64,000 nt of DNA from Curvibacter sp. AEP1-3 (GTDB taxonomy: Bacteria > Pseudomonadota > Gammaproteobacteria > Burkholderiales > Burkholderiaceae_C). Of this stretch, positions 4,627 to 56,850 are shown in pieces. The notes below the pieces were generated by a model, which saw nothing but the letters and a program-made list of their open reading frames with translations, did no database searches and was not told where the DNA came from. Position 1 is the stretch's first letter, and each line of letters opens with the position of its first letter. The stretch spans positions 558,001-622,000 of the forward strand of contig NZ_CP015698.1 of the NCBI RefSeq assembly GCF_002163715.1, given 5' to 3'. The position numbers and the translations under genes were made by a program.

Positions 4627-5253
4627 CTAAAACTCCCCCTTGCCCAGCTTGGCCAAGCTTTGCGCGGCAGTATCCAGCGCGTGCTCCACCTCATTGGAAA
4701 GGATGGACTTGATCTGGGTCTCATCACTCGTGGCGGCGAGCTGTGGTGCCAGGTTGTAGGGCAATCCCTCGATACTCGTACGCAAGACGGTGATGATTTC
4801 AGCTACCACCGCGCGGACTTCGGAGGCGGGCAACAGCTCGCGGATCTTCTCGCGATAGCTGGCCTCGGCTTCCATGGCGGCGAAGTGCTCGCGCTTGGCC
4901 TTGCTGCCCTGGTAGTCGTAGCCCTGCCCGGCGGGTGGCTGCTCGCCCTCACCCGCTACAGAATTGGTAGCTGCTTGCGCACTACTGGCGTGCGCTGGCG
5001 CTTGATTTGTCTTGCTTTCTGCATGGCCGGTAGCCACCTCGGCGCCGCGCTCTTCGGCGTGGCGGGCAGCCACACCGGCTTTGCTGGGGTCGCGGGTTTC
5101 GGCGATGCGTGCAATGCTCTCTTGCACCCGCACGGTCTTGCCGTCTTCGGCCAGCACCAAGCGGCCGGTCTTTTTGAGCTCGCTGCCGTAGCCGACTTTG
5201 ACGCCGATCAGGCGGCAGAACTCGGACAGGGTTGCCGTTTCGGGGGTGCTCAT
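4627..5253 (-). CDS. Phage terminase small subunit
   Basis: A 208-residue protein directly upstream of terL and probably the DNA-recognition subunit. The N-terminal 60 residues (SEFCRLIGVKVGYGSELKKT) look like the winged-helix DNA-binding part of Nu1-type small terminases. The middle, about residues 70-110, is low-complexity Ala/Gln/Ser/Glu. The C-terminal 100 residues are helical (EASYREKIRELLPASEV) and probably oligomerise. The low-complexity middle is partly encoded by a 44-bp dispersed repeat (4954-4997), so this linker seems to have taken up a repeat without losing frame. The gene overlaps the 71-residue upstream gene by 4 bases. Confidence 0.75.
   Translation of the reverse strand: MSTPETATLSEFCRLIGVKVGYGSELKKTGRLVLAEDGKTVRVQESIARIAETRDPSKAGVAARHAEERGAEVATGHAESKTNQAPAHASSAQAATNSVAGEGEQPPAGQGYDYQGSKAKREHFAAMEAEASYREKIRELLPASEVRAVVAEIITVLRTSIEGLPYNLAPQLAATSDETQIKSILSNEVEHALDTAAQSLAKLGKGEF
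4954..4997 (-). repeat. 44-bp dispersed repeat, copy 1 (inside terS)
   Basis: Read on the minus strand it contains AGCGC, then TGCGCAAGCAGCTA, then TGTAGC at the family's fixed spacing. It is read through in frame within the terminase small subunit, where it encodes part of the Ala/Ser/Gln-rich linker. It is the only prophage copy and the only one of the nine confident copies in this orientation. Confidence 0.75.
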
Positions 5254-5465
5254 CGGGGGACCTCGCCTTTGAAATACTTCATGGGTTCGGGCTTCAGCCA
5301 GGCGGCGTGCACCTCTTTGGCTGGGCCGAGTGGGTAGGGTTCGGAGTGATCCAGCTCGCGCACCCGGATGACTTCGCCGGATTGCATGGCGATGACCGAT
5401 TTGTCGCCGAGCAGGTAGCGGTGGCCTTGTAATGCGGTGGCAAAGTCACCGGGTGCGGTTTTCAT
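5250..5465 (-). CDS. Small phage protein of unknown function
   Basis: A 71-residue protein beginning MKTAPGDFATALQGHRYLL and ending MKYFKGEVPR. The composition is ordinary, with no recognised domain, membrane segment or signal peptide. It overlaps the terS start by 4 bases and follows the Rha-family gene by 5 bases, so it belongs to the packaging operon. Small proteins at this place are common in lambda-like prophages, but I cannot assign a role. Confidence 0.65.
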   Translation of the reverse strand: MKTAPGDFATALQGHRYLLGDKSVIAMQSGEVIRVRELDHSEPYPLGPAKEVHAAWLKPEPMKYFKGEVPR

Positions 5466-5470
5466 ACGGG

Positions 5471-6370
5471 CTATTTCTCCATGCAGGTGTTGATACGGTC
5501 CACGCAGGTGCCGAGCCAGTGCACCTCGGTCATGTCATCGGGGCCACTTTTGCAGCCGGCTGGATACATGAATGAGGCAGGGCCCCGCAGATTGCCGTCG
5601 GCGTCCTGGTAGCGCTTGCGCTTGGCGGTAACCATGCCGGCCGCCTGTAGCACGTTGCTCCAACGGGGCAAGGTCAAGGGCTCGGCGCCTTGTTGCTTGA
5701 CCCACCGGCTGTAAAACTCATATGCACTGACAGTCAAGATGGGCAGGCAAGCGCCGGAAGCGAATGCACCAGCCTCGTACTCAGCCCAGAAATTCAGCAC
5801 ACGCTGCACTTCGGGGTTGATTGGTGCGGGCGCTTCCAGCGCGGCCAGCTGGCTGTGGGCCTGCAGTTCATCCAACATGCAGACGCCGGTTTTTAGACGT
5901 GCAACTTCGTTAGCGCGGCGGATGGCCTGGGCGGTGGTCAATCCTGCCACCCGACCGGAGCGGATGACGGCGCGGAAAGTGCGGTCAGCCGCCACCATCA
6001 CATCAGCAGCATGGGACAGGAACAGCGCCCCGCCAGGCTGCGGCAGTTGCTGGGAAGCCAGTTTGTCGCGCAGCTCAAAGAAAGCCCGAACCAGGGCGAC
6101 CTTGAACTTGATGACCAGCGGGCTGTTGCGCATGAAGGTCACCAGCAGGGTGGCTTGCTGCTCGTTCAGAAATGCCACATCGCGAGTCTGTTTGCCTCCG
6201 TTGGTGTCAAAGGGTTCAATTTCAAATTGAACCCTTCCAAACTCAGAGAGACTGTCAACGTGCTTTTTAAGCAGGACCAGAACACTGTTGTGCTCCATTT
6301 CGACGCCTTTTGCGATCGCCAATGAAGTGGTCATGGGTTCGTTGTGGTGAAGCAAAACGAGATCAGACAT
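5471..6370 (-). CDS. Rha-family phage regulatory protein with a primase-like C-terminal module
   Basis: 299 residues from an ATG preceded by AAGGAGGTTGCA, a near-perfect ribosome binding site; an upstream in-frame start at 6394 has none. Residues 1-105 match the Rha family: 'TTSLAIAKGVEMEHNSVL', 'FLNEQQATLLVTFMRN' and 'VIKFKVALVRAFFELR' are its typical blocks. Rha proteins are phage regulators that act early after infection. The last 85 or so residues (EFYSRW..., LPRWSN, RKRY, YPAGC, WLG) align with the C-terminus of the primase-helicase encoded at 8607-11054, suggesting a shared DNA-binding module. It lies just downstream of the putative antisense-RNA immunity leader, so it is a likely target of that control. 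Confidence 0.85.
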   Translation of the reverse strand: MSDLVLLHHNEPMTTSLAIAKGVEMEHNSVLVLLKKHVDSLSEFGRVQFEIEPFDTNGGKQTRDVAFLNEQQATLLVTFMRNSPLVIKFKVALVRAFFELRDKLASQQLPQPGGALFLSHAADVMVAADRTFRAVIRSGRVAGLTTAQAIRRANEVARLKTGVCMLDELQAHSQLAALEAPAPINPEVQRVLNFWAEYEAGAFASGACLPILTVSAYEFYSRWVKQQGAEPLTLPRWSNVLQAAGMVTAKRKRYQDADGNLRGPASFMYPAGCKSGPDDMTEVHWLGTCVDRINTCMEK

Positions 6371-6611
6371 TGCAACCTCCTTGCTTGCTGGCAAGCTGCA
6401 CGGCGCGCAATTGCTGGCGCACCATGTCGTGCAAGCGCTTGTTTTCCACCAGAAAAGCTTGCAGTCGTCGAATTTCGGCGGCTGCGGGGCTATTTGCAGG
6501 TGCGCCGGACAGCCGACCGCCTTTATTGCGGGGCTGCTTGACTGGACGAGCCAGCGCAGTGGGAAGTGGGATGATTTGTGCGCAACGGGGCGCGGATGCG
6601 TTATGAGCCAT
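6363..6611 (-). CDS. Small coiled-coil phage protein of unknown function
   Basis: 82 residues from an ATG with CTGGAGGCC upstream, a strong ribosome binding site. The N-terminal 45 residues are Pro/Ala/Arg-rich and probably disordered. The C-terminal part, 'AEIRRLQAFLVENKRLHDMV', is a predicted amphipathic coiled coil. Its end overlaps the Rha start by 8 bases, which implies translational coupling. It is the first gene after the structured leader (6620-6850), so its expression should depend on read-through of that leader. No family recognised. Confidence 0.6.
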   Translation of the reverse strand: MAHNASAPRCAQIIPLPTALARPVKQPRNKGGRLSGAPANSPAAAEIRRLQAFLVENKRLHDMVRQQLRAVQLASKQGGCNV

Positions 6612-6619
6612 GAATGGCC

Positions 6620-6850
6620 TCCAGGGACTGCGGTTTACAACAACCACCGCACCCGAGACCAATCGAGGGCGGCAGCTCGAATGGGTTGGTCTACCGGGCA
6701 GCCCCTGCGGGAACCGGCGGAGCTTGCGCTCCCCCATCCGAGCCGCCAAAACTGGAGGCACAGACAACGAAGCCGCAGACTCTGCGGAAAAGAGGCCACG
6801 GCTTTCGTCGTGGAGCTGCAACGGGAGACCAATCCCGATCACGCCTTTTT
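6620..6850 (-). ncRNA. Putative P4-type antisense-RNA immunity leader (CI-like RNA locus)
   Basis: On the minus strand this untranslated leader carries two copies of a hairpin whose loop is TTGGTC: CGGGA-TTGGTC-TCCCG at 6837-6822 and CGA-TTGGTC-TCG at 6664-6653. Between them is a hairpin with the complementary loop, GGT-AGACCA-ACC (6695-6684). Seven bases (AGACCAA) can pair with either copy, extended by GGG/CCC around a bulge at the first. Other stems are GGAGC-GCAA-GCTCC (6731-6718), CCGCAGA-g-TCTGCGG (6787-6773) and CCACG...CGTGG (6812-6795). As I recall, phage P4 has the same target/anti-target/target order (seqA, seqB in the CI RNA, seqC), where a processed RNA terminates leader transcription. 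P4-like integrase and primase genes are in the same element. The promoter and RNA ends were not located. Confidence 0.6.
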
Positions 6851-6885
6851 TTGACGTGACGGGCGGAGTGTAGCGCAAGCTAATA

Positions 6886-6899
6886 TGTGTGCATACACA
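6886..6899. promoter_or_regulatory. Palindromic operator-like site between leader and divergent regulator
   Basis: TGTGT-GCAT-ACACA is an inverted repeat with 5-base arms. It lies 12 bases upstream of the ATG at 6912 and upstream of the oppositely directed leader. Placement between two divergent units suggests a regulator binding site, perhaps for the wHTH-like protein encoded at 6912-7259. Inference from position and symmetry only. Confidence 0.4.
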
Positions 6900-6911
6900 A
6901 GGGAGGGAACC

Positions 6912-7259
6912 ATGCGATTCTTTAAAGCACTGCGCATGGCGTTTGCCGGATGGATGGCCAGCAGAGCCAGAAGACGACAGCGCGAGGCGGGCATGCGATC
7001 GACGGCCAACAGCCCAGCTGCGCCGCAACCCGTGACCATGGAACCGATCGCTCCCCAGGTTAAGGGCTACAGCTTGACCATTCCGCAACTGATTTGCCTT
7101 GACTACGGGAGGGACGGAAAGCCCTTCCAGGCGGACAGCAGAGGACCAACCATACGCACGATCCGATCGCTGACCGCCAAAGGTTTGCTCCAAGAATCCA
7201 AACCCGGATGGTTCACGATCACACAAACCGGACTCGGCATTCTCAAAAGTCGGGACTAA
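6912..7259 (+). CDS. Small winged-helix-like protein, divergent to the immunity leader
   Basis: 115 residues from an ATG preceded by GGGAGGGAACC, a strong ribosome binding site. The N-terminal 30 residues are basic and amphipathic (MRFFKALRMAFAGWMASRAR). The C-terminal 50, 'RTIRSLTAKGLLQESKPGWF' followed by TITQTG, read like the recognition helix and wing of a winged-helix DNA-binding domain. It is the only plus-strand gene between the leftward replication and packaging units and diverges from the immunity leader. No named family recognised. A regulatory role is plausible from the fold-like pattern and position but unproven; an accessory inserted gene is the alternative. Confidence 0.55.
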   Translation: MRFFKALRMAFAGWMASRARRRQREAGMRSTANSPAAPQPVTMEPIAPQVKGYSLTIPQLICLDYGRDGKPFQADSRGPTIRTIRSLTAKGLLQESKPGWFTITQTGLGILKSRD

Positions 7260-7285
7260 TAACTGGTTCATAAAGGCGGGCATGT

Positions 7286-8074
7286 TCAGGCTCCCAGCTT
7301 TTCCGCTGCCTGCCGAATCCGAGCGCGCATGCGCTTCGCAAGGAAGTTGTCGGCATCGGCTTTTTCAGCGATGCGGGCCATGTTGAGGCGTGGCGTATAG
7401 CTGGGCGTGCGCACGAACATGAGCACGGGGCGCACATCGGCGCCCGTAGTGCCCACGACTGCCCAGATGCCGGGTGCGAGGTGGCCGGTTTTGCCGCTGC
7501 GCAGCTTGCCGTAGGCCACAAAGTAGCGCCGGCCAGAAACCTTGCTGGTGCCTTTGATCAGGTTGGCTTTGCGCTTGTCGCTCATATTGGCCTTAAAGCC
7601 CTGCTCCCCGAAGGCTTGGAAGTAGCTGATGAGCTGCACCAGGAAGGGCCCGCGCATGTTGCCGCGGCCATCGTCACTGCCAGGGAAAGGAACGCGGGGC
7701 AGCGCGGTCTGGTAACCAGCAGGCAGGATGCCGGCACGGCGCAGGATGACTTCGGAGCGCTTGTCGCGGCGGGTGCCGCCGGCCTCTTGCGCGCGCAGGA
7801 TCTGCTGGGGGTCTATGCCCTTGCCGCCGAAGTAGGTGGGCTCGATGGTGGCGCTGAGGCTGCTGGCGTCGGCCTGTTTGACGTAGACGCTTTTGAGGAT
7901 GTAGGGCGTGGGGTCTTGGAAGACGCTAGCCATTTCCGCCTGCATGGTGCGGCGCACCTGAAATGCGGTGTCGGTGATGGCCTTGGCGGCGGCTTCGCGG
8001 AGCTGGGGGCCGCTGAGCTGGTTGAGCTGCTTGAGGACCTTCTCCAAGCCTTCCATCTTGAGGGTGATTTTCAT
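7286..8074 (-). CDS. Phage minor tail/tail-completion-like protein (gpZ-like)
   Basis: 263 residues from the ATG giving MKITLKMEGLEKVLKQLNQL; a longer upstream frame has Pro/Arg-rich shadow composition, and this start overlaps the preceding stop as ATGA. The opening 'MEGLEKVLKQLNQLSGPQLR' and the following 'AITDTAFQVRRTMQAEM' are typical of phage minor tail proteins of the Z or tail-completion type, which act in tail joining. Basic residues are frequent in the C-terminal half. It lies between the replication genes and the immunity leader, away from the packaging module, which is unusual. The family call comes from the N-terminal pattern and length. Confidence 0.6.
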   Translation of the reverse strand: MKITLKMEGLEKVLKQLNQLSGPQLREAAAKAITDTAFQVRRTMQAEMASVFQDPTPYILKSVYVKQADASSLSATIEPTYFGGKGIDPQQILRAQEAGGTRRDKRSEVILRRAGILPAGYQTALPRVPFPGSDDGRGNMRGPFLVQLISYFQAFGEQGFKANMSDKRKANLIKGTSKVSGRRYFVAYGKLRSGKTGHLAPGIWAVVGTTGADVRPVLMFVRTPSYTPRLNMARIAEKADADNFLAKRMRARIRQAAEKLGA

Positions 8075-8325
8075 GATGCTTGCTCGCTTTCGGTTTTTGC
8101 GGCTTTGGAGGCGATCAGCGCGGGGATGGCACCCAACCCCTGCGCCACACCTTCTTTGCTGCCGGTGAGCGTGATTTGCAGGCGGCGCAGGCCGGGGAAG
8201 ACGCCTTGGGCGATCAGGTCGCGGCAAAGGGTGCCGAGTTCAGGCCAGTCGCGCAGGGCTTGCTTGAACTCGGGGAGGTTTTCTTCCGTGCAGCGGATGG
8301 TTTTCTTTACCGGTTGGCAGTCCAT
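8071..8325 (-). CDS. Small phage protein of unknown function
   Basis: 84 residues from the ATG giving MDCQPVKKTIRC; a second ATG lies one codon upstream (8328). The sequence is acidic then basic ('ENLPEFKQALRDWPEL', 'SKAAKTESEQAS') with a hydrophobic middle 'LQITLTGSKEG'. The ribosome binding site is weak (AAAAGAA). It overlaps the gpZ-like gene by 4 bases, so the two are coupled. Longer upstream extensions of this frame run through the repeat-rich origin-like DNA and read as Cys/His-rich nonsense, so they were not used. No domain recognised. Confidence 0.55.
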   Translation of the reverse strand: MDCQPVKKTIRCTEENLPEFKQALRDWPELGTLCRDLIAQGVFPGLRRLQITLTGSKEGVAQGLGAIPALIASKAAKTESEQAS

Positions 8326-8340
8326 CATTTCTTTTGTGCG

Positions 8341-8590
8341 GGATGTGGGGGATGTAGTGCGGCATGCGAAAACGCGCAAACCCGCATGGGCATTGACGTG
8401 TGCGGTGTGTGCGGTATGTGCGGGGTACAGGCGCACAGGTGTGCGCACATGCGCACGCCTGCACACACGCACGCCTGCATGGGAAACCGCAAACGATGCC
8501 GCACATACCGCACAACCCATATAAATCAACGACTTAACCCCGCACACGATGGCGCACGGCATACCGCACACACCGCACAGATTTGGGGTT
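8341..8590. other. Candidate replication origin: iteron-rich inverted repeats and AT-rich segment
   Basis: This gap between the small gene and the primase gene holds many TGTGCGG units in both orientations. TGTGCGGTGTGTGCGGTATG occurs on the plus strand at about 8399-8418 and again on the minus strand at about 8579-8560, forming a large inverted repeat. Further copies are CCGCACATACCGCAC (about 8499-8513) and a perfect-arm palindrome GTGCGCA-CA-TGCGCAC near 8440-8457. Between them is an AT-rich patch, ATATAAATCAACGACTTAA (about 8519-8537). P4-type primases bind iterons at the origin with their C-terminal domain, so an iteron cluster next to this primase is a good origin candidate. Replication activity is inferred. 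Confidence 0.55.
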
Positions 8591-8606
8591 ATGGCCAGAG
8601 CGCGCA

Positions 8607-11054: not shown

Positions 11055-11226
11055 CAGTAACTTTCGGGGCCGCTAGCTACACACAAAAAGGGGTTCGAAT
11101 TACCCGCACGCAGAGGTGAAGGGAAGGACCCAATGCCGGGGGTGGCTGCATCAGCACCACGCAACGCGCAGGAACCAACGCCAGCGTTTACCGCTGCTGC
11201 TACCAATGGGGAGGTGGGGCTAGCTC

Positions 11227-12240: not shown

Positions 12241-12248
12241 CTGAGCTG

Positions 12249-12464: not shown

Positions 12465-12471
12465 GCGCGGA

Positions 12472-12512: not shown

Positions 12513-12533
12513 CTACAGGATTATTCTCACGCC

Positions 12534-13492: not shown

Positions 13493-13493
13493 A

Positions 13494-14828: not shown

Positions 14829-15124
14829 ACACCACCGCACACCGCCTGGTCAACATCCTGCTGGCCCTCGCCATCGTGGCCGTCTACGCAGCCATGCAAC
14901 AGGTCGATGGCATGCCTGATGGCCGCGCCGAAATGGCGCAGTCTGCCGCCACACAAGACGCTATCAAAACAGAAGCTGCCCGCGCACGTTACATGCGGGC
15001 CGCTGCCCAATCTTGCGGAAATGCTGACTGGGTGGAGGTAGACGCCCAAACCGTGCGCTGCATTCCCCGCAAGGCACCCGCCAACACTGGCGCTGTCGTG
15101 GCTCTGGCCGAGGTGACACGATGA
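14825..15124 (+). CDS. Small single-pass membrane or secreted phage protein
   Basis: 99 residues. Residues 8-24 (LVNILLALAIVAVYAAM) are a hydrophobic segment that acts as a membrane anchor or uncleaved signal. The rest is Ala-rich and helical with a Cys-containing end (CGNADWVEVDAQTVRCIP). It overlaps its neighbours on both sides by 4 bases (ATGA type). No family recognised. Confidence 0.6.
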   Translation: MNTTAHRLVNILLALAIVAVYAAMQQVDGMPDGRAEMAQSAATQDAIKTEAARARYMRAAAQSCGNADWVEVDAQTVRCIPRKAPANTGAVVALAEVTR

Positions 15125-21112: not shown

Positions 21113-21727
21113 TCAGATTTTGAAGCCGATCTCTCGGAGAACCTGAGCGGTTTCAAAGAGTGGCAGACCCATGATGCCAGAGTAAGAGCCCTCAATGCGC
21201 GCAATAAACGCGGCCGCCCTGCCCTGCACACCGTATGCGCCGGCCTTGCCCATGGGTTCGCCGCTCGCCACGTAGATGGCAATATCGTCTTCGCACATGG
21301 CAGAGAAAGTGACTACCGATTCCGAGCACGCCTGGGCGGTCTTGTCGCCCCATGCCACTGCCACCGCAGTAAACACGCGATGGGTGCCGCCAGCCAAAGC
21401 GCGCAACATGCGCTTGGCATCTTCTGCATCCGCCGGCTTGCCAAGGATGCTGTCCCCCAAGGCGACGGTCGTGTCCGCACAAAGAATAGGACGATTTTGA
21501 CCGCTAGCGCCCGCTAAACGTGCGCGAGCAGCTATCAATTTAAGAGCAGTCACCCGCTGCACATAAACCGCAGGCGTATCGCCCTCCAACACCACTTCCA
21601 GGCTCTCAGCATCTTCATCTGGGGTGGGCAAGAGCAACTCGTGCGCAACGCCGATCTGGGTCAGCAACTCGCGACGGCGCGGACTCTGGGAGGCGAGATA
21701 GATGTAGTCCGGGGCACTCATGGTCAT
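21113..21727 (-). CDS. maf: Maf-family nucleotide pyrophosphatase
   Basis: 204 residues from the ATG that overlaps the rlmH stop as ATGA. The Maf signature is present: '[18 protein letters not shown]' at the start, [21 protein letters not shown] in the middle (read in two parts), and the late '[18 protein letters not shown]'. Maf proteins hydrolyse non-canonical or modified nucleoside triphosphates such as m7GTP. The segment [19 protein letters not shown] is encoded by a 44-bp dispersed repeat and falls in a normally variable loop before the catalytic strand. First chromosomal gene beside the prophage. Confidence 0.93.
21505..21548 (+). repeat. 44-bp dispersed repeat, copy 2 (inside maf)
   Basis: Contains TAGCGCCCG, TGCGCGAGCAGCTA and AGCA at the family spacing. 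Lies antisense to maf and is translated in frame into an Ala/Arg-rich loop. Confidence 0.85.
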
Positions 21728-22919: not shown

Positions 22920-23536
22920 CAGTGAGGTCGGTAAAGAAGGTGTTGGTCAATATAACGCGCAACCGGTTCAAAAACCAGTGGGGCAATGCTCTCGCCGGAG
23001 GCTACACGTTGTCGGATTTCGGTGGCACTGACAGCCATGGGAGGCATGTACAGCACAGTCAGGCCGGGGATTTCGGCACTCAAGGCATCAAATTGACCCT
23101 TGGCGCCCGTTGAATCTGCGCGGGCAGCTACACTAATTATAGCAAGTGCCGGCAGCGCCTCGGATTCATGCCAAGTATGCAGGGCTAGCGCCTGGTCTTC
23201 GCCGATCAGCAAGTGCAGAGCCGCCCCCGGATTTTCCGCATGCAGTTCGCGCAAAGTGTCCACGGTGTAGCTGGCACCTGCGCGCCGGGTTTCGCGCGCA
23301 TCCACCTGCACTTCCGGAATATCGGCAAAGGCCAAGGTAGCCATGGCCAAGCGGTGTTCCGCAGAACTCAAGGCCCGGGCCTTGTGCCATGCGTGCCCGG
23401 TCGGTATGACCAGCAGCTTGTCCAGTGACAGCTCGGCGATGGCAGCCTTGGCCAGAGCCAAATGCCCGAGGTGCGGGGGGTCAAACGCGCCCCCGAACAC
23501 GCCAATGCGCAAGGGTCTGCTGGCAGATGTGGTCAA
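22919..23536 (-). CDS. nadD: Nicotinate-nucleotide adenylyltransferase
   Basis: About 205 residues from a TTG start that overlaps the hemF stop (TTGA); no ATG is available before the core, and longer frames run antisense-like through hemF. The signature '[20 protein letters not shown]' is the nucleotidyltransferase GxFDPxHxGH motif, and '[15 protein letters not shown]' is the C-terminal ISSTxIR equivalent. It makes NaAD from NaMN and ATP in NAD synthesis. The piece around [18 protein letters not shown] is encoded by a 44-bp dispersed repeat. The start choice is uncertain. Confidence 0.92.
23101..23144 (+). repeat. 44-bp dispersed repeat, copy 3 (inside nadD)
   Basis: Contains GGCGCCCGTTGAAT, TGCGCGGGCAGCTA and TTATAGCA. 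Antisense to nadD and translated in frame, giving a segment similar to the one the maf copy gives. Confidence 0.88.
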
Positions 23537-29544: not shown

Positions 29545-30867
29545 ATGCTCGACCTGCTTATCCACAACGCTACCTTGCCCGACGGGCGCAGCCACATGTC
29601 GGTGGCGGTGCAAGGCGGTCGCATCACAGAGGTGACGCAAGGGCTCACGCCCGAAGCCGCTCAGGCCTCTGAGGTGGTGGACGCCGGCGGCATGCTGCTC
29701 AGCAGCCCTTTTGTGGATGCGCACTTCCACATGGACGCCACGCTGAGCCTGGGCCTTCCGCGCCTGAACCAAAGCGGCACGCTACTGGAAGGCATTGCGC
29801 TGTGGGGTGAGCTCAAACCCCACCTCACCTTTGAGGCGCTGGTAGACCGCGCCCTGGCCTATTGCGACTGGGCGGTGGCCAACGGCCTGCTGGCCATACG
29901 CAGCCATGTGGACACCAGCGACCCGAGCATGCTGGCGGTGGAAGCCCTGTTGGCAGTTAAAAAGAAAGTCGCGCCCTATATCGACCTGCAGCTGGTCGCG
30001 TTCCCGCAGGACGGCGTGCTGCGGAGCAGAGGCGGTGTGGACAACCTCAAGAAAGCGTTGAGCCTTGGCGTGGACGTGGTGGGTGGCATTCCCCACTTCG
30101 AGCGAACCATGGCCGACGGTGCTGCCAGCGTCAAGCTGCTGTGCGAGCTGGCGGCTGAGCAAGGCAAGCTGGTCGACATGCACTGCGACGAGTCGGACGA
30201 CCCGCTCTCGCGCCACGTCGAAACCCTGGCATTTGAAGCAAACCGCCTGGGCCTGCACGGCCGCGTGACTGGCTCCCACCTCACATCCATGCACAGCATG
30301 GACAACTACTACGTGAGCAAACTGCTGCCCCTGATGGCCGAGGCGCAATTGAGCGTGGTGAGCAACCCGCTCATCAACATCACCCTGCAAGGCCGGCACG
30401 ACACTTACCCCAAGCGCCGCGGCATGACCCGCGTGCCCGAAATCATGGCAGCCGGCATGACCGTCGCCTTCGGTCAGGACTGTTGCATGGACCCCTGGTA
30501 CAGCATGGGTAGTGGCGACATGCTGGAGGTGGCCAGCATGGGCCTGCACGTGGCGCAAATGACCAGCCAAAGCGCCATGCAGCAATGCTTTGATGCCGTC
30601 ACCACCAACCCCGCCCGCATCCTGCACCTGGAGGGCTATGGCCTGGAAAAAGGCTGCCACGCCGACCTGGTGCTGCTTCAGGCGCAAAACCCTATCGAGG
30701 CTATCCGCCTCAAAGCCACCCGCCTCAAAGTCTGGCGCAGGGGCGCTCTGGTGGCACAAACTCCGCCACGGACAGCGACACTGGCTCTGCCCGGCCGGCC
30801 GGCGAGCACATCTTTCTTACATACCAAACAGGTCTCTAGCGCTCATGGATATTGCGCAAGCAGCTAG
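29545..30867 (+). CDS. codA: Cytosine deaminase-like amidohydrolase (possibly 5-methylcytosine specific)
   Basis: 440 residues, close in layout to E. coli CodA. Metal ligands are visible: H60 and H62 (DAHFHMD), H213 (DMHCDESDD, with catalytic E216), H245 (GSHLTSMHSM) and D312 (GQDCCMDPWYS). The residue matching CodA Asp314 is Cys313, and the residue before the catalytic Asp is Gln instead of His. Position 314 governs 5-substituted cytosine use, so the substrate may not be plain cytosine. The neighbouring upp gene favours uracil salvage. The C-terminus is extended by about 20 residues up to a stop that lies within a 44-bp repeat. Confidence 0.85.
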   Translation: MLDLLIHNATLPDGRSHMSVAVQGGRITEVTQGLTPEAAQASEVVDAGGMLLSSPFVDAHFHMDATLSLGLPRLNQSGTLLEGIALWGELKPHLTFEALVDRALAYCDWAVANGLLAIRSHVDTSDPSMLAVEALLAVKKKVAPYIDLQLVAFPQDGVLRSRGGVDNLKKALSLGVDVVGGIPHFERTMADGAASVKLLCELAAEQGKLVDMHCDESDDPLSRHVETLAFEANRLGLHGRVTGSHLTSMHSMDNYYVSKLLPLMAEAQLSVVSNPLINITLQGRHDTYPKRRGMTRVPEIMAAGMTVAFGQDCCMDPWYSMGSGDMLEVASMGLHVAQMTSQSAMQQCFDAVTTNPARILHLEGYGLEKGCHADLVLLQAQNPIEAIRLKATRLKVWRRGALVAQTPPRTATLALPGRPASTSFLHTKQVSSAHGYCASS

Positions 30868-30880
30868 CAAAAACATAGCA
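30837..30880 (+). repeat. 44-bp dispersed repeat, copy 5 (codA-nitrilase junction)
   Basis: TAGCGCTCATGGATATT, then GCGCAAGCAGCTAG and CATAGCA. It supplies the codA stop codon (TAG at 30865-30867) and an ATG (30845) in frame with the downstream nitrilase gene. Confidence 0.9.
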
Positions 30881-30886
30881 TTCACG

Positions 30887-31588
30887 ATGGCTGCTGCACA
30901 AAGCACCTCGGTCCCGCTGGAGGTGGTGGCCAATGTGCAAAACCACCTGCGCTTTGTGGAAGCAGCTGCGCAGCATGGCGTGCAGTGGCTGGTCTTCCCG
31001 GAACTGTCCCTCACCGGCTACGAACTGGCCGCAATGCCCGACCTCGTGCTCCACCCCGAGCACGCCTTGCTGGCGCCCCTGCGCGAAGCAGCCCAACGCA
31101 CAAGCATGGCCATTACCGTGGGCGCTCCGGTGGACAGCGGCAGCGCCCTGCCCTTCATAGGCGCGATCACCCTGCGACCGGATGGCCAACACTACGTTTA
31201 CGCGAAGCACCACCTGCATGGCAGCGAAACCCGATTCGCCACCGCCGGCTCAGCGCCGGTAGGCCTGCAGGAATGGAATAGCCACACAGTCGCCAGCGCC
31301 ATCTGCGCCGACACCAATCACCCCGGCCATGCTGCGCATGCGGCAGCAGCAGGTGCCTGCGTCTACGCAGCCGGCATCCTCACATCTGCCAATGGCTATG
31401 CCGCCGAAGCCCCCCTGTGGGCCAGCTATGCGCGGGAACATGCCATGACGGTTGTGATCGCCAACCACGGGGGACCATCGGGGGGCTATTTGTCGGCCGG
31501 GAGAAGCGGAATTTGGGGAACCGATGGGGCCCTGCTGGTGGAAGCAGCGGGTACAGGGGATTGCTTGGTAGTGGCTCAGACCATTTGA
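30887..31588 (+). CDS. Nitrilase/carbon-nitrogen hydrolase family protein
   Basis: 233 residues from the ATG giving MAAAQSTSVPLEV, which fits the usual first strand of the family; an alternative ATG at 30845 lies inside the repeat and would add 14 residues. The Glu-Lys-Cys triad is visible: E in FPELSLTGYE, K in YAKHHLHGSE, C in SAICADTNHPG. The late NHGGPSGGYLSAG is also typical. It hydrolyses an amide or nitrile of unknown identity. Shorter than most (260-300). No clear ribosome binding site precedes either start. The position after the deaminase suggests nitrogen salvage, by inference. Confidence 0.85.
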   Translation: MAAAQSTSVPLEVVANVQNHLRFVEAAAQHGVQWLVFPELSLTGYELAAMPDLVLHPEHALLAPLREAAQRTSMAITVGAPVDSGSALPFIGAITLRPDGQHYVYAKHHLHGSETRFATAGSAPVGLQEWNSHTVASAICADTNHPGHAAHAAAAGACVYAAGILTSANGYAAEAPLWASYAREHAMTVVIANHGGPSGGYLSAGRSGIWGTDGALLVEAAGTGDCLVVAQTI

Positions 31589-33175: not shown

Positions 33176-35074
33176 ATGCAGAGGCCGCGTTTTCCAAAGT
33201 TATGGGCGTGCGTTCTTTGGCTGGCAGGTGCGCTGCTTTCAAGTGCCCATGCCGGTCGCTTCGTAGACATTGCGCCCGAGCGGGTGGCCAGCCTCACCCA
33301 ACAATTGCCTGAAAAACCATCCGGTTTAGGGCCTGCTTGTCTGGATCGCTCCGCCTGGGGGCAAGCAGACGTTCAACGGCGCCTGCAAGAGGTCACCAAA
33401 GCTGCTGAAAAAATCGCCGCGCAGCCCGTGCCTCCGTGGGACGACGAGGCCTACCTCGAATACAGCCGCAATGGCGTTCGTGGCAATGGCGAACGCATGA
33501 TGAACGCGCGCAAAGCGGGGCTGCATGTGCTGGTGCTGGCGGAATGCAGCCAATGGGCGGGCAGCTACCTTCCCTCCATCTCACGCTTGCTCCAAGCCCT
33601 GAGCACACAACCCACCTGGACGTGGCCGGCCCATGACAAGGATTTGCGCAATTTCCGCGGGCAGCGTTTTGAGGTGGATTTGTTTGCCGCCGACACAGCC
33701 AACGAACTGGCCCAAGCGCTCTACCTGCTGGGCGACAAGTTGGATGGCTCGACCCGAAAGATGGTGCGGGATACCGTGGTGCAACGCGTACTCGCCCCGG
33801 TGCGCGCCAGCTACGAGACCGGAGGCAAAGACCACTGGTGGCTCAAGGCAGACCACAACTGGAACGCGGTGTGCCTCAAAGGGGTGACAGGCACTGCATT
33901 GGCGCTGCTGCCCAACCGCGAAGACCGTGCAGTATTTGTGGCGGGCGCGGAGCATTACATCCGCAACTATCTGGGTGGTTTCCCGCCGGACGGCTACGCG
34001 CTGGAGGGCCCCGGCTACTGGAACTATGGCTTCTCGCACTACACAGAGTTGCGGGAAATGCTGATGCAGGCCACCGCTGGCCGGCTAGACCTGTTTGACA
34101 ACCCGCTTGTGCGCGAAGTGGCGCTCTATGGGTACCGGTTTGAGATGACGCCGGGAAATGTGGCGCTGTTTGGAGACGCAGGGCGCAACACCCGCATGGA
34201 TGACACCACGCGCGCCTATGCCAACGAGGCCTATGGCCTTGGCCAGCCGCAAACCCTGTTCAGCCAGAGCGTGAGCGTCAATGCCCCGGCCAACTCCAGC
34301 CCGCTGGTACAGGCATCCATCAAGCTGTTCAGCAAGCCGGCACCTGCAGGCCATGGCAGCGCCTCGGCGGTGGGCTTGCAGACCTACTTCAACACCGTGG
34401 GCGTTCTGGTGTCCCGCCCCGGGCCGGGCGAAACCCTGGGCTTTGCCATCAAGGCGGGAGGCAACGGCAACCACAGCCACAATGATGTGGGCTCCTACAC
34501 CATTGCCCTTGGGGCCGAGCAGCCGGTGGGCGATGCGGGTGCCACGGTGTACTCCTCCAAAACCTTCAGCAAAGACCGCTTCACCATCCGCGGCATCAAC
34601 TCCTGGGGCCATCCGGTTCCCGTAGTGGCGGGCCGTTTGCAACGCGAGTCCACCAAGGTCAAAGCGCCAGTTCCCGAGCAACGAGGCGACGCCAACGGCA
34701 GCATGATGCGCATCGACATGAAGCCCGCCTATGCACTGGATTCGCTACAAAAACTGGAGCGCTCCGCGCAGCATATTCGGGGGCCAGAGCCCAAAGTGAT
34801 CATTGAGGATGCTTTTCGCTTCAGCACCCCTCAGACCTTTGAGTCGGCCATCATCAGCACCGGCCAGTTCCAGCGTGTAGCGGACGACACCTTGGACTTC
34901 TGGCAAAAACGGGAACACCTGCGGGCCAAAATCAGCGCCTCGCAGGCCTTCGAGCTCCAGACCGAAACGGTGACGGAAGAAGGTCTCACCTTCAACCGCA
35001 CCGCCATCCGCTTCCTGCAAGCCGTCACCGGTAATGCCTGGGTGCGCATGGAATTCACCCCGGCGCCCCGCTGA
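33176..35074 (+). CDS. Secreted heparinase II/III-like polysaccharide lyase
   Basis: 632 residues. A signal peptide covers about residues 1-25 (LWACVLWLAGALLSSAHA). The N-terminal 350 residues form an alpha/alpha toroid-like lyase part ('DHWWLKADHNWNAVCLKGVT', 'PDGYALEGPGYWNYGFSHYT'), and the C-terminal part is heparinase II/III-like with NHSHNDVGSYTIALG. Such enzymes degrade uronic-acid polysaccharides in the periplasm or outside. No transporter or partner enzymes are next to it, so the substrate is unknown. Confidence 0.85.
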   Translation: MQRPRFPKLWACVLWLAGALLSSAHAGRFVDIAPERVASLTQQLPEKPSGLGPACLDRSAWGQADVQRRLQEVTKAAEKIAAQPVPPWDDEAYLEYSRNGVRGNGERMMNARKAGLHVLVLAECSQWAGSYLPSISRLLQALSTQPTWTWPAHDKDLRNFRGQRFEVDLFAADTANELAQALYLLGDKLDGSTRKMVRDTVVQRVLAPVRASYETGGKDHWWLKADHNWNAVCLKGVTGTALALLPNREDRAVFVAGAEHYIRNYLGGFPPDGYALEGPGYWNYGFSHYTELREMLMQATAGRLDLFDNPLVREVALYGYRFEMTPGNVALFGDAGRNTRMDDTTRAYANEAYGLGQPQTLFSQSVSVNAPANSSPLVQASIKLFSKPAPAGHGSASAVGLQTYFNTVGVLVSRPGPGETLGFAIKAGGNGNHSHNDVGSYTIALGAEQPVGDAGATVYSSKTFSKDRFTIRGINSWGHPVPVVAGRLQRESTKVKAPVPEQRGDANGSMMRIDMKPAYALDSLQKLERSAQHIRGPEPKVIIEDAFRFSTPQTFESAIISTGQFQRVADDTLDFWQKREHLRAKISASQAFELQTETVTEEGLTFNRTAIRFLQAVTGNAWVRMEFTPAPR

Positions 35075-42116: not shown

Positions 42117-42136
42117 TTTCGAAGAAAATCGGGCCC

Positions 42137-42180
42137 TGGCGCCCGATAGATATGCGCGAGAAGCTATGAATTCAATAGCA
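42137..42180 (+). repeat. 44-bp dispersed repeat, copy 7
   Basis: TGGCGCCCGATAGATA, TGCGCGAGAAGCTATGAA and AATAGCA; GCTATGAATTCAATAGC forms a short inverted repeat. It runs directly into the terminator. Confidence 0.9.
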
Positions 42181-42212
42181 AAAAGCCCCTGCAGGAACCT
42201 GCAGGGGCTTTT
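42181..42212. terminator. Strong bidirectional Rho-independent terminator
   Basis: A 13-bp perfect stem (AAGCCCCTGCAGG / CCTGCAGGGGCTT) with a 2-base loop, preceded by A's and followed by TTTTC. It separates the convergent bdhA and kinase-HDOD genes and can end transcripts from both sides. Confidence 0.93.
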
Positions 42213-50396: not shown

Positions 50397-50413
50397 GCCA
50401 CAGGTTTCACCGA

Positions 50414-51823: not shown

Positions 51824-51841
51824 CACCTACGATCAGAAAGC

Positions 51842-52321: not shown

Positions 52322-52355
52322 GTATGGATTCCGGTTTTTGCTTCAAATTTGCCTC

Positions 52356-52399
52356 TCGCGCCCATGGAATATGCGCGAGCAGCTATGAAAAAGATAGTA
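52356..52399 (+). repeat. 44-bp dispersed repeat, copy 8 (ispF-ispD gap)
   Basis: TCGCGCCCATGGAATA, TGCGCGAGCAGCTATGAA and GATAGTA. It occupies about half of the 91-base gap between ispF and ispD, whose transcript must run across it. Confidence 0.92.
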
Positions 52400-52412
52400 T
52401 TTCCGCCAACCA

Positions 52413-53186
52413 TCAGACTCGCGCAGCCAGCACCGCGGCAGCCAGCGCAAAGTCTTGCGGGTAAGTGACCTTGAAATTCTGCGCACTGCCTTCGACGAGC
52501 TTAGGGCTTTGCCCCATGAACTCCAGCGCGCTGGCCTCATCCGTCACCGCATCACCGGCCGACCGCAAGGCAGTCTGCAGGGCACCGATGCGGAACATCT
52601 GCGGCGTTTGGGCCAGCCACTTGTCACTGCGGTCTATCGTCGCGGCTACGCGGCCGCCCTGTTCTTGCTTCAGGGTGTCGGGCAGCTTCAAGGCCAGCAG
52701 ACCACCGACGGCATCGTGCTGGCACGCGTCAATCAGCCGGTCCACATCGGCGGCTGTGAGCAGACAGCGCGCGGCATCGTGCACCAGCACCCAATCCTGC
52801 GCTTGAGCACCCTGCTCCAGCAAAGCAGAAAGTCCATTCAACACACTTCCAGCGCGGGTGGAACCTCCGCAGGCAGCTACAAAAACAGGAGCACCTTCAG
52901 GCGCGTGTGCAGACCCAAAGAAAGTATCCCCGGCCGACACCACCACCTGAATACCCGCCAATCGCTCCACCGCAGCCAAGGCCTGCAGGGTGTGCAGCAC
53001 CATGGCCCGGCCGCCCAACACGGCGTATTGCTTGGGGCCGGCAGCACCTGAGCGGCTGCCAGTGCCTGCGCAGGGCACCAGACCCCAAAGTCGAGGATCC
53101 GCAGCGGAGTGTGACGGGACCGGGCGCGCGTCGGCAGGCGACAAAGGGGATATGGGAGGTGTTTGGGTCATAGAGGGAGCGACCAT
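52413..53186 (-). CDS. ispD: 2-C-Methyl-D-erythritol 4-phosphate cytidylyltransferase
   Basis: About 257 residues from the ATG giving MVAPSMTQTPP, preceded by GGAGTG at good spacing; a later ATG (53171) is possible. The signature LVPCAGTGSRSGAAGPKQYA binds CTP, with VHDAARCLLTAADV, IDRSDKWLAQTPQMFR and 'DEASALEFMGQSPKLVEGSA' following. It makes CDP-ME in the MEP pathway. The N-terminal extension of about 25 residues is poorly conserved in this family. The segment APVFVAACGGSTRAGSV overlaps a doubtful repeat copy. Confidence 0.95.
   Translation of the reverse strand: MVAPSMTQTPPISPLSPADARPVPSHSAADPRLWGLVPCAGTGSRSGAAGPKQYAVLGGRAMVLHTLQALAAVERLAGIQVVVSAGDTFFGSAHAPEGAPVFVAACGGSTRAGSVLNGLSALLEQGAQAQDWVLVHDAARCLLTAADVDRLIDACQHDAVGGLLALKLPDTLKQEQGGRVAATIDRSDKWLAQTPQMFRIGALQTALRSAGDAVTDEASALEFMGQSPKLVEGSAQNFKVTYPQDFALAAAVLAARV
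52850..52893 (+). repeat. Possible degenerate 44-bp repeat (inside ispD)
   Basis: CAGCGCGGGTGGAACC, TCCGCAGGCAGCTAC and AGGAGCA keep the family spacing exactly but differ at many positions. The region also encodes the conserved GG-x-TRA-x-SV motif of IspD, so the likeness may be chance. Confidence 0.35.
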
Positions 53187-53312
53187 TCTAAAATCACTCC
53201 AGCGCAATCCAGCCCCACACCCGATTTTTCTGGCGTGGGGCTGTTTGCACGCCAGCCGCCCTTTCAGGCGGCTGCACCTATTTTGGCCGCCCAGACTGCA
53301 CCCCACCGATTC

Positions 53313-56300
53313 ATGGATCTTCCCAAGCTTACCCCCGGCAAACGTTTCACCCTGCCCCGCCCCACCGGCTCTGCCGACGCCATGTTGCTGGCGCGCCTAG
53401 GCACCCGGGAGAAAGCAGCGGGCAAGCCGATGACGGTGGTGACGGCAGACGCAAGCGACGCACAGCGCCTTTTGGAAGAAATTGCCTTCTTCGCGCCCGA
53501 CTTGCGCTGCGCCCTCTTCCCCGACTGGGAAACCCTGCCTTACGACACCTTTTCGCCCCACCAGGATTTGATCAGTGAGCGTCTGGCCACGCTGTGGCGA
53601 ATCAGCCAGCGCGACAAGGAAAATGGGGCTGACGTGGTCATCGTGCCCGCCACCACCGCGCTGTACCGCTTGGCCCCCCCCAGCTTTCTGGCGGGCTACA
53701 CCTTCGAGTTCAAGGTCAAACAAAAGCTGGACGAGGCACGCCTCAAAAGCCAGCTCACGCTGGCAGGCTACAGCCATGTCACGCAGGTGGTGAGTCCCGG
53801 CGAATACGCGGTGCGCGGCGGGCTGATCGACCTCTTCCCCATGGGAAGCCTAGTACCTTACCGCGTAGACTTGTTTGACGACGAGATCGACAGCATCCGC
53901 ACCTTCGACCCCGACAGCCAGCGCAGCCTGTACCCGGTGCCCGAAGTGCGCCTCTTGCCCGGCCGCGAGTTCCCCATGGACGACGACGCCCGTGCCAAGT
54001 TCCGCAGCCGCTGGCGCGAATTGCTGGACGGCGACCCGACCAAGAGCCGCATCTACAAGGACATCGGCAATGGCGTAGCCACCGCGGGTATTGAGTACTA
54101 CCTGCCGCTGTTCTTTGAAGAAACAGCCACCGTGTTCGACTACGTGGGCGAAGACGCCACCGTGGTGCTACATGGCGACTTGGAGCCGGCCTTCCAGCGT
54201 TTCTGGCAAGACACCAAAGACCGCTACCGCCTGGTACAGGGCGATCCGGACCGCCCGGTGCTGCCGCCCGAGAGCCTGTTTCTCGGCACGGAGCAGTTTT
54301 ACGCCAAGGCCAACGAGCATGCCCAACTGGCCATTCGCGCCCAGTCCGAAGGCACCGAGTTTTCTGAGGTCAGCCCGCTGCCCGAGCTGGGCGTGGTGCG
54401 CGGCACCGAAGAGCCGCTGGCCTTGCTCAAACAGCACGCCCGCAACACCCAGCAGCGCCTGCTGGTGCTGGCCGAGAGCGATGGCCGGCGCGAAAGCCTG
54501 CTGGACTTTTTGCGCGCCTCACAGTTCAGCCCGCCCGCCTTTGACAGCCTGCACGAATTTCTGGACAGCAAAGAGCCCATAGGCATTGCCACCTCGGGTC
54601 TGACCAAGGGCTTCAGCTGGCTGGAAGCCGGCATTGACCTGATCACCGAGACCGAGCTGTTTGCCGCCGGCCCCACGACACGCCGCCGCAAAAAGCAAGA
54701 GCAAGTCAGCGATGTGGAAGCGCTGATCAAAGACCTCTCCGAGCTCAACGTGGGCGACCCGGTGGTGCACAGCGCGCACGGCATAGGCCGCTACCGTGGG
54801 CTGATGCACATGGACATGGGCAACAAAAACGCCGCCGGTGAGCCTGAGTTGCAAGAGTTTTTGCACCTGGAATACGCCGACAAGGCCACGCTCTATGTGC
54901 CGGTGAGCCAGCTGCAGCTGATTTCCCGCTACACCGGCGTGAGCGCTGACGAAGCACCCCTGCACCGCCTGGGCAGCGGCCAGTGGGAAAAAGCCAAGCG
55001 CAAGGCCGCTGAGCAGGTGCGCGACAGTGCGGCCGAGCTGCTCAATATCTACGCCCGCCGTGCCGCCCGCGAAGGACACCCCTTCCGCTACAGCCCGGGC
55101 GATTACGAGACCTTTGCCAACGACTTCGGCTTTGACGAAACCGCCGACCAGAAGGCCGCCATCCACTGCGTGATCCAGGACATGATTTCCCCTCGCCCCA
55201 TGGACCGCCTGGTCTGCGGCGATGTGGGTTTCGGTAAAACCGAGGTGGCTTTGCGAGCCGCCTTTATTGCCGTGACGGGCGGCAAGCAGGTGGCGTTTCT
55301 GGCGCCTACGACCCTCTTGGCTGAGCAGCACTTCCAGACCCTGGTGGACCGCTTCAGCAAGTGGCCGGTGAAGATTGCCGAGATGAGCCGCTTTCGCAGT
55401 GGAAAGGAAATTACCGCTGCGCTCAAGGGTGTGGCTGATGGCACGGTGGACATTGTGGTGGGCACGCACAAGCTGTTGTCTGAGTCCACCCAGTTCAAAA
55501 ACCTGGGGCTCTTGATCATCGACGAAGAGCACCGTTTCGGCGTGCGCCACAAAGAGCAAATGAAGGCGTTGCGGGCCGAGGTGGATGTGCTGACGCTCAC
55601 CGCGACCCCTATCCCGCGTACGCTGGGCATGGCACTGGAAGGCCTGCGCGACTTGAGCGTAATTGCCACCGCCCCCCAGCGCCGCCTGGCCATCAAGACC
55701 TTTGTGCGCACCGAGGGCAACGGCGTGATCCGCGAAGCAGTGCTGCGCGAACTCAAGCGCGGCGGGCAAGTCTACTTCTTGCACAACGAGGTGGAGACCA
55801 TCGAGAACCGCCGCCAGAAACTCGAAGAGCTGCTGCCCGAAGCCCGCATTGCCGTGGCCCACGGCCAGATGCCGGAGCGCCAGCTGGAAGCCGTGATGCG
55901 CGACTTCGTGGCCCAGCGCTACAACCTGCTGCTGTGCTCCACCATCATCGAAACCGGCATTGACGTGCCGAGTGCCAACACCATTGTCATGAGCCGCGCC
56001 GACAAGTTCGGCCTGGCGCAGCTGCACCAGTTGCGCGGCCGCGTGGGGCGAAGCCACCACCAAGCCTATGCCTACCTGATGGTGCCCGACCTGGAAGGCC
56101 TGACCAAACAGGCCCAACAGCGCCTGGACGCCATACAGCAAATGGAAGAACTGGGCAGCGGCTTTTACCTGGCCATGCACGACCTGGAAATCCGGGGGGC
56201 CGGCGAAGTGCTGGGCGAAAACCAGAGCGGCAACATGCTGGAAGTGGGCTTTCAGTTGTACAACGAAATGCTGTCGGAAGCCGTGCGCTGCCTCAAGAAC

Positions 56301-56792
56301 GGCCAGGAGCCGGACCTGCTGAGCCCGCTCAACGTCACCACCGAGATCAACCTGCACGCCCCCGCCCTGCTGCCCGATGACTATTGCGGCGACGTGCACC
56401 TGCGCCTGTCCTTTTACAAAAAACTGGCGACCGCCAAGACTACCGACCAAGTGGACGGGCTGCTGGAAGAAATTGTGGACCGCTTCGGCAAGCTGCCGGC
56501 CCAGGCCCAGACGCTGATTGACGTGCATCGCCTGCGCGTGATCGCCAAGCCTTACGGGGTGATAAAGGTTGACGCCGCACCCGGCGTCATCCACATCACC
56601 TTCAAGAAGAACCCGCCGGTGGAGATGATCAAGCTCATCGAGCTGATCCAGAAGAACAAGCACATCAAGCTGGCCGGCAATGAGAAGCTGCGCATCGAGC
56701 GCGAGCTGCCCGAAGTCAAAGACCGGGCACAGATGGTGCGCGACATCCTGCGATCCCTGGGGCAACCCGTCGCGGAGAAGGCCTCCGCATAA
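53313..56792 (+). CDS. mfd: Transcription-repair coupling factor
   Basis: 1159 residues from the ATG giving MDLPKLTPGKRF; a longer upstream frame overlaps the ispD start region. The N-terminal UvrB-homology part has ALFPDWETLPYDTFSPHQDL (UvrA-binding module), the RNAP-interaction domain lies near 'VGDPVVHSAHGIGRYRGLMH', and the translocase has Walker A CGDVGFGKTEVALRAAF (about 633-649), IIDEEHRFGVRHKE, TATPIPRTL and the TRG-type 'GRVGRSHHQAYAYLM' motif. It removes stalled RNA polymerase and recruits UvrA. Confidence 0.98.
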   Translation: MDLPKLTPGKRFTLPRPTGSADAMLLARLGTREKAAGKPMTVVTADASDAQRLLEEIAFFAPDLRCALFPDWETLPYDTFSPHQDLISERLATLWRISQRDKENGADVVIVPATTALYRLAPPSFLAGYTFEFKVKQKLDEARLKSQLTLAGYSHVTQVVSPGEYAVRGGLIDLFPMGSLVPYRVDLFDDEIDSIRTFDPDSQRSLYPVPEVRLLPGREFPMDDDARAKFRSRWRELLDGDPTKSRIYKDIGNGVATAGIEYYLPLFFEETATVFDYVGEDATVVLHGDLEPAFQRFWQDTKDRYRLVQGDPDRPVLPPESLFLGTEQFYAKANEHAQLAIRAQSEGTEFSEVSPLPELGVVRGTEEPLALLKQHARNTQQRLLVLAESDGRRESLLDFLRASQFSPPAFDSLHEFLDSKEPIGIATSGLTKGFSWLEAGIDLITETELFAAGPTTRRRKKQEQVSDVEALIKDLSELNVGDPVVHSAHGIGRYRGLMHMDMGNKNAAGEPELQEFLHLEYADKATLYVPVSQLQLISRYTGVSADEAPLHRLGSGQWEKAKRKAAEQVRDSAAELLNIYARRAAREGHPFRYSPGDYETFANDFGFDETADQKAAIHCVIQDMISPRPMDRLVCGDVGFGKTEVALRAAFIAVTGGKQVAFLAPTTLLAEQHFQTLVDRFSKWPVKIAEMSRFRSGKEITAALKGVADGTVDIVVGTHKLLSESTQFKNLGLLIIDEEHRFGVRHKEQMKALRAEVDVLTLTATPIPRTLGMALEGLRDLSVIATAPQRRLAIKTFVRTEGNGVIREAVLRELKRGGQVYFLHNEVETIENRRQKLEELLPEARIAVAHGQMPERQLEAVMRDFVAQRYNLLLCSTIIETGIDVPSANTIVMSRADKFGLAQLHQLRGRVGRSHHQAYAYLMVPDLEGLTKQAQQRLDAIQQMEELGSGFYLAMHDLEIRGAGEVLGENQSGNMLEVGFQLYNEMLSEAVRCLKNGQEPDLLSPLNVTTEINLHAPALLPDDYCGDVHLRLSFYKKLATAKTTDQVDGLLEEIVDRFGKLPAQAQTLIDVHRLRVIAKPYGVIKVDAAPGVIHITFKKNPPVEMIKLIELIQKNKHIKLAGNEKLRIERELPEVKDRAQMVRDILRSLGQPVAEKASA

Positions 56793-56806
56793 ACCAAATT
56801 GGCCTC

Positions 56807-56850
56807 TGGCGCCCATTCCGTGTGCGCGAGCAGCTACTAAACTTATAGCA
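56807..56850 (+). repeat. 44-bp dispersed repeat, copy 9 (mfd-serB gap)
   Basis: TGGCGCCCATTCCG, TGTGCGCGAGCAGCTACTAA and TTATAGCA. It sits between mfd and serB, ending 9 bases before the serB ATG. Confidence 0.92.

Follow-up and report, generated by a model that had tools for sequence, protein, structure and literature searches.

What is the short sequence that recurs nine times, in much the same layout, in a 64,000-nt stretch of Curvibacter sp. AEP1-3 (contig NZ_CP015698.1, positions 558,001 to 622,000; hereafter the window), and how did copies of it come to lie within conserved genes? A first-pass annotation of the window described a dispersed 44-bp repeat that had spread as a unit. We assign a probability of about 0.72 to the reading that these copies belong to an old, non-autonomous, palindromic family of mobile DNA with a unit of ~54-57 bp, which spread in the Comamonadaceae-type part of the bacterial family and is now mostly quiet. 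Each copy would fold into two small hairpins. Because the consensus is free of stop codons in one frame per strand, copies landing in genes could be tolerated in either open frame and then translated. The element presumably moved as single-stranded hairpin DNA, and the likeliest mover would be a resident Y1 transposase of the repetitive extragenic palindrome (REP)-associated tyrosine transposase (RAYT) type, acting in trans.

All nine copies were found again in the window. A position matrix built from them scores them at 53-75 bits (maxima of 10 mononucleotide shuffles, one strand, -7.8 to 9.0), and a covariance model built from the same nine recovers them at 58.7-74.6 bits, together with three decayed copies at 16.7-24.7 bits. 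The 14-mer given by the first-pass annotation is weak when used alone (56 matches at up to 3 mismatches; chance mean 38.25), and the spacing along the window, described as fixed, is not. The G+C content of the window copies is 45-58 per cent. The copies and their host genes are listed below, with copies in 66-nt model coordinates.

4627..5253, minus strand: prophage terminase small subunit gene (PHROG 57), host of a copy
4947..5012, minus strand: element copy, 58.7 bits, within the prophage terminase small subunit gene, sense open frame NQAPAHASSAQAATNSVA
14952..15017, minus strand: decayed copy, 19.8 bits
21113..21763, minus strand: maf gene (PF02545), host of a copy
21490..21555, plus strand: element copy, 66.5 bits, within maf (minus strand), antisense open frame, 18 residues
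22919..23698, minus strand: open reading frame (ORF) with nadD (PF01467), host of a copy; the real start codon is probably further in
23086..23151, plus strand: element copy, 71.6 bits, within nadD (minus strand), antisense open frame, 18 residues
29455..29520, plus strand: element copy, 69.3 bits, intergenic; genome G001 is shorter by 89 bp here
30822..30887, plus strand: element copy, 69.7 bits, in which the gene upstream ends (stop codon) and a carbon-nitrogen hydrolase gene probably starts
34736..34801, minus strand: possible decayed copy, 16.7 bits
37561..37626, plus strand: element copy, 66.1 bits, intergenic, next gene 6 bp on
42122..42187, plus strand: element copy, 70.3 bits, convergent genes on either side
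52341..52406, plus strand: element copy, 72.7 bits, intergenic
52835..52900, plus strand: decayed copy, 24.7 bits
56792..56857, plus strand: element copy, 74.6 bits, intergenic, core 4 bp past the mfd stop and 9 bp ahead of a HAD hydrolase gene (Pfam)

The first-pass annotation placed copies beside genes that it named upp, codA, bdhA, ispF, ispD, serB and UPF0303, and its placement of one between mfd and the next gene (its serB) is borne out by Pfam for mfd and a HAD-type gene. Three of the nine are within genes, and the copy at 30822-30887 spans a stop codon and a likely start. The copy in nadD is also found in the NadD of relatives (among the matches listed). An Rfam search of the window returned a single match, a C4 antisense RNA, at none of the copies.

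The 44 bases first taken as the unit are only the inner part of a conserved unit of ~54-57 bp. Its 3' end is sharp, at ATAGCA, with information content falling to about zero within a few bases; the 5' border is softer, and a weak TT...TCAAAT tail extends ~10 bp further. The two ends (AATTGGCC and ATAGCA) are not complementary, and no terminal inverted repeats were found in the consensus. Two hairpins, unlike each other in sequence, can be drawn for each copy, as proposed earlier, and their pairing statistics are weak. Most of the GCGC/GCGC hairpin does not vary, and its covariation is weak, with 711 paired cells against 686 on average and at most 705 in shuffles. The inner three pairs of the 3' hairpin are paired in 96 of 96, 107 of 107 and 108 of 108 cells and hardly vary, and the outer two in only 71 and 74 of 109. 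Single copies fold as DNA marginally better than their shuffles (z +0.35 to -1.90), and a pairing test of the 5' tail gave no signal (2 of 210 pairs with z above 3, 2 below -3).

The family extends far beyond the window. A covariance-model search of the whole home genome (G000, 4.38 Mb) gave 1481 candidates; all 150 that were scored match, the weakest at 44.6 bits, so that the genome carries at least 150 copies. Iterating a profile from the nine window copies gave 46 copies in 400 kb of G000 and 47 each in 400 kb of two relatives, G007 and G001 (E < 0.001, merged), with none in a reversed-sequence control. These counts are far above chance and uphold the proposal of a dispersed family spread as a unit; extrapolation suggests ~500 copies per genome. 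With strict filters, at least 48 of 120 genomes (completeness at least 90 per cent) sampled from the GTDB family have matches, and in at least 27 the element is abundant, occupying no fewer than 29 of 43 scored places (high-copy genomes). For the home genus, the names of homologues point to Rhodoferax and Comamonadaceae. The consensus varies by lineage: the home genus, for example, has GCGCCCG...TGTGCGC, where G127, G033 and G085 have GCGCTTG...CAAGCGC. Copies are more alike within genomes (mean 0.635) than between them (0.595; reached by none of 500 label shuffles), which we read as spread that carried on after the genera parted; because the mean likeness within genomes is low, most copies would be old. 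In G033, two copies 165 bp apart (locus L152, 18230 and 18395) are the same in sequence over the element and its left flank, which suggests that the DNA was duplicated locally. The 55-nt consensus had no match among 50,697 records of a phage collection, and 3 of 72,556 plasmid records match. On the Diaphorobacter plasmid NZ_CP049911.1 (L266), copies at 1904-1957 and 6002-6055 flank cobN; the second runs over the 3' end of cobN and stops 1 bp short of a gene starting at 6057.

Within the 400-kb stretch of the home genome, 20 of the 46 copies lie within genes, 7 across a gene end and 19 in intergenic DNA (genes of G000, G007 and G001 were called with a simple codon-usage caller). A model trained on 75 copies outside genes, taken from all three genomes and in some cases overlapping a gene end, guards against circularity and composition. 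It detects 17 genic copies in G000, 21 in G007 and 19 in G001, and has no match at E < 0.01 in the 400 kb searched of two relatives without the element. The consensus is open in two frames (NWPLAPVECARAAIKLIA and AINLIAARAHSTGARGQ, one per strand), and the remaining four of six contain stops; 16 of 17 genic copies in G000, 18 of 21 in G007 and 16 of 19 in G001 lie in these two frames (for G000, binomial p 2.7e-7; orthologous copies make up most of the three sets). Selection acting after entry into genes would explain this restriction, and it is likely that the genic copies are translated. The host genes include maf, nadD, purL (two copies), ligA, dapE, cobS, cobD, cobU, earP, a PrmB/PrmC-like methyltransferase gene (Pfam MTS and PrmC_N), a tRNA/rRNA uracil methyltransferase-like gene and a sigma-70 factor. 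One copy (contig C1 of G000, 493317-493370; L046 13317-13370) is open in G007 and G001 and has an in-frame stop in the home genome, where the gene call ends within the copy; we take the host protein to be SelO-like.

What the element does to a host protein differs from gene to gene. In the terminase small subunit the full 18-residue peptide sits in a linker in a number of homologues (NQPLAPAESARAATESVA in protein P0254) and is missing in others; the stretch compared has ~65 residues with it and 45 without (61 of 106 matches aligned; figures among the 45 matches listed). This gain rules out that genic copies never add their full length. In dapE, 14 of 15 high-copy genomes carry the element (14.5-36.9 bits), and G023 and 13 of 13 zero-copy rows (12 genomes) are without it; of the high-copy rows that have it, seven are 30 codons long over this stretch and seven 34-47, where G023 has 22 and the zero-copy rows 22-26. 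At this site the dapE of G109 (L171) has a longer insert, of 47 codons, and has KGFSPLAQ in common with that of G057 (38 codons); this insert is possibly a second or extended repeat. Fewer residues are added at the element in purL (first copy, 7 more than Salmonella PurL), earP (7-8) and cobU (9). In maf the element spans 50 bp and the length is unchanged: the gene is equally long, without the element, in G132 (same genus) and in seven zero-copy rows. The methyltransferase gene, where 14 of 15 high-copy rows score 8.7-36.2 bits and 11 zero-copy rows no more than 2.3, likewise has no gap at the element, nor has ligA when compared with the E. coli ligase. Since the element-free comparisons are mixed, some indicating a full gain and some equal length, both plain insertion and replacement-like outcomes appear to have occurred.

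Little has moved recently. When orthologous sites were placed by 300-bp flanks, 35 of 35 comparable home copies were shared with G007, the nearest relative; in G001, 27 were present and 8 undetected (11 of 46 copies, without synteny, were left out of each comparison). Of those eight sites five are of equal length and one is off by 3 bp (read as decayed), one lacks 89 bp, and one is 1280 bp longer and rearranged. In the reverse direction, 35 of 47 G007 copies were found in G000 (1 undetected at equal length, 11 not placed), as were 27 of 47 G001 copies (1 undetected at equal length, 19 not placed). Because all comparable G007 copies are shared, the family is apparently silent or nearly so in the home genus. 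Presence/absence variation, which the first-pass annotation had proposed as a check, is thus lacking at close range and appears at genus and family distance, in maf, dapE and intergenic gaps. Some gaps are empty there (for example, 11 bp in G132 against 115 in G000, and 19 bp in G093 against 107), and other gaps keep the element. Lineage-specific likeness of the copies and these element-free orthologous sites together point to movement as a unit. Non-genic copies and their 60-bp flanks have identities of 0.921 and 0.923 to G007 and of 0.808 and 0.825 to G001; for genic copies and flanks the values are 0.898 and 0.881 to G007, and 0.778 and 0.764 to G001. Because copies diverge at the rate of their flanks, as a class they are not under sequence selection.

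The search for a RAYT gene proposed by the first-pass annotation yielded one in the home genome. It is a 231-aa ORF with DHFH, columns that are variable among 48 relatives, and it gives the only Y1_Tnp match (33.7 bits; cut-off 23 bits); a search of solved structures returned no match. A decayed element copy (15.1 bits) starts at its stop codon, and diverged versions occupy the same place in L032-L034. Across the sample, Y1_Tnp matches occur in 26 of 27 high-copy genomes compared with 63 of 93 others (Fisher p 0.002). The 3' part of the element follows the RAYT stop at 17 of 25 high-copy loci (25 of the 26 with a match, the home genome apart), at 2 of 15 zero-copy loci (hand-chosen, including L137, only 30 per cent identical) and, across the G000 stretch, at 6 of 367 gene ends; shuffled sets of 25 give 1.6. 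This test used a 16-mer at up to 5 mismatches, picked after viewing the flanks, L127 above all; without L127 the count is 16 of 24. In G127 one nearly perfect copy lies at the RAYT 3' end. Many high-copy RAYTs are bounded by GGGGTCAGA and TCTGACCCC, the latter a palindrome that borders many of the RAYT genes at loci L106-L145 and occurs, single or paired, in most of 16 genomes searched, with no match in G000 or G001.

It is possible, and we hold this tentatively, that a resident RAYT mobilised the element in trans and that the family is a REPIN-like one (REPINs being inverted REP doublets) unusually tolerant of genes. The association with Y1_Tnp, the relic copies and the G127 copy favour this, but several observations weigh against it and against our own reading. 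The TCTGACCCC palindrome that flanks the RAYT forms close inverted pairs at four other G127 loci (contig C1, 582084, 820890, 1097601 and 3022669); since it bounds RAYTs and forms inverted doublets elsewhere, TCTGACCCC is probably the RAYT's own REPIN in G127 and others, a family distinct from the element. The home RAYT scores 44.4 bits with NCBIfam NF047646 (REP_Tyr_transpos), under the cut-off of 80, and the copy beside it is unlike the consensus of the home population. In G105 there are 29 copies and no match to a Y1 transposase. High-copy loci are not exclusive in the RAYT tree, where their common ancestor has 36 tips, 7 of them zero-copy (L032-L034 being labelled high-copy without a copy count); the RAYTs of high-copy genomes share ancestry, so that the association may reflect one old event, and common descent accounts for the correlation equally well. 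Beyond the transposase, covariation backs the hairpins weakly and the 3' hairpin not at all, its total of 456 paired cells being under the shuffle mean of 464.5. The gaps of G007, G001, G132 and G093 were searched for a recent site that is cleanly empty, with exact ends, and none was found. Finally, plain insertion does not predict lengths below the full element, yet maf, the methyltransferase and ligA have no added length, and seven dapE rows, purL, earP and cobU gain fewer than 18 codons.

These equal lengths are what one would expect if the element entered genes by overwriting partly similar sequence, through annealing of a single-stranded copy in a conversion-like event, rather than by insertion. 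Element-free dapE may indeed already resemble the 5' end of the element (AAACGGCC in G107). We nevertheless consider overwriting unlikely: the terminase linker gains nearly the full 18 residues, in some dapE rows the gain exceeds 8 codons, and later deletions or the native likeness of Ala/Arg-rich helices could equalise lengths (Burkholderia Maf has a similar native stretch), with no event recent enough for direct reading. It is similarly doubtful that a single-stranded hairpin copy replaces similar coding sequence at near-equal length, leaving unrelated essential enzymes throughout a bacterial family with a shared translated piece of the repeat in either of two open frames. That genic copies are chance likenesses of alanine/arginine-rich coding sequence to the model is hardly credible. 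The favoured frames do encode AARA-like peptides, common in high-G+C proteins, and native Maf and PrmB/PrmC-like proteins are already similar at the site, but the model is silent in the two element-free relatives, and bit scores at the sites in dapE, maf and the methyltransferase gene are 8.7-46 for most high-copy rows and no higher than 2.3 for zero-copy ones. A host-useful element kept in place by selection (a transcription terminator, an mRNA 3' hairpin or a nucleoid site) would fit the position of non-genic copies near gene ends, where 6 of the 19 intergenic copies lie between convergent genes and 1 between divergent genes, compared with 21 and 43 of 174 gaps of at least 60 bp. This is improbable, since copies are conserved no better than their flanks in G007 or G001, the hairpin of the consensus is not followed by a T-run, tandem gaps hold both orientations (7 and 5), and 20 of 46 copies are within genes. 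Identity with the Beta-proteobacterial repeat element (BRE) of Bordetella is suggested by BRE being described from Comamonadaceae too and having the same class of hosts, mostly in spacers and with some copies in coding sequences (PMC3110155). It is very improbable: by its own description BRE is ~90 bp long, on average 69 per cent G+C in Bordetella and partly tandem, with 4 copies in R. ferrireducens and no more than 29 in any listed genome (PMC3110155), and is set apart in length, G+C, tandem habit and copy number from an element of 54-57 bp, 45-58 per cent G+C (window copies) and more than 40 copies per 400 kb in the genus.

The old, mostly quiet palindromic family that we favour can be compared with other systems. 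It most resembles in habit the Rickettsia palindromic element (RPE), which as described is also palindromic and non-autonomous and occurs in spacers and, in an open frame, within conserved protein genes (PMC2229807, PMC10969869). RPE is 105-146 bp long with a 12-bp terminal inverted repeat (PMC2229807); the present element, in contrast, is 54-57 bp long, has two separate hairpins without terminal inverted repeats, is open on both strands and resides in betaproteobacteria with genomes of 3-5 Mb. REPs are described as extragenic and REPINs as inverted REP doublets (PMC3116915). The short palindromic copies, hundreds of them per genome, the single RAYT-type gene and the relic copy adjoining it recall a REP/REPIN system with its RAYT. 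The comparison with REP made earlier overlooks that some 40 per cent of the copies lie within genes (20 of 46, or 17 of 46 with the non-genic-trained model). Unlike in a REPIN, the two hairpins differ and form no inverted doublet, and the RAYT has another candidate REPIN. Bacterial miniature inverted-repeat transposable elements (MITEs) such as ERIC, NEMIS and RUP are likewise short, non-autonomous and dispersed, with some copies in frame in genes (PMC2229807), but the element lacks terminal inverted repeats, so the likeness to MITEs first suggested does not hold; no target duplication was seen among the gaps compared, none of them a clean recent empty site. It thus works like RPE, yet is a member of neither RPE, REPIN, MITEs with terminal inverted repeats nor, on length and G+C, BRE.

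No earlier description was found in the open-licence literature searched, and one under another name is possible in subscription papers; a search of PMC3733652 for six genus names gave none. A mention in PMC10969869 reports MITEs in Polaromonas sp. JS666. These might be the same element. The strain presumably belongs to the same bacterial family as the hosts studied here. In-frame invasion of proteins by a palindromic repeat is best known from Rickettsia, an intracellular genus. The same habit is now seen in betaproteobacteria with hundreds of copies, in Maf, NadD, DapE, PurL and a phage packaging gene. Selfish DNA that adds to or rewrites proteins could here be tested over many genera, with element-free relatives as controls.

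The host gene of the terminase copy belongs to a group of prophage genes on the minus strand of the window (2705-8227) that encode the terminase large and small subunits, an anti-repressor-like regulator and a minor tail protein; the C4 antisense RNA lies within this region, at 6665-6753. The viral contig L282 carries the same element copy as well (37.6 bits), and L283 does not. The Pfam family DUF1010 (PF06231) starts with a translation of the repeat, and the element lies 13 nt inside the match in 10 of 12 DUF1010 loci (L268 1181-1687, L267, L269-L272 and L275-L280). Strong element matches also occur in arrays in G127, G085 and G028, at steps of ~260-320 bp. These arrays resemble integron cassettes. 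The same stretch is also found near blaIMP-1 on two IncP plasmids.

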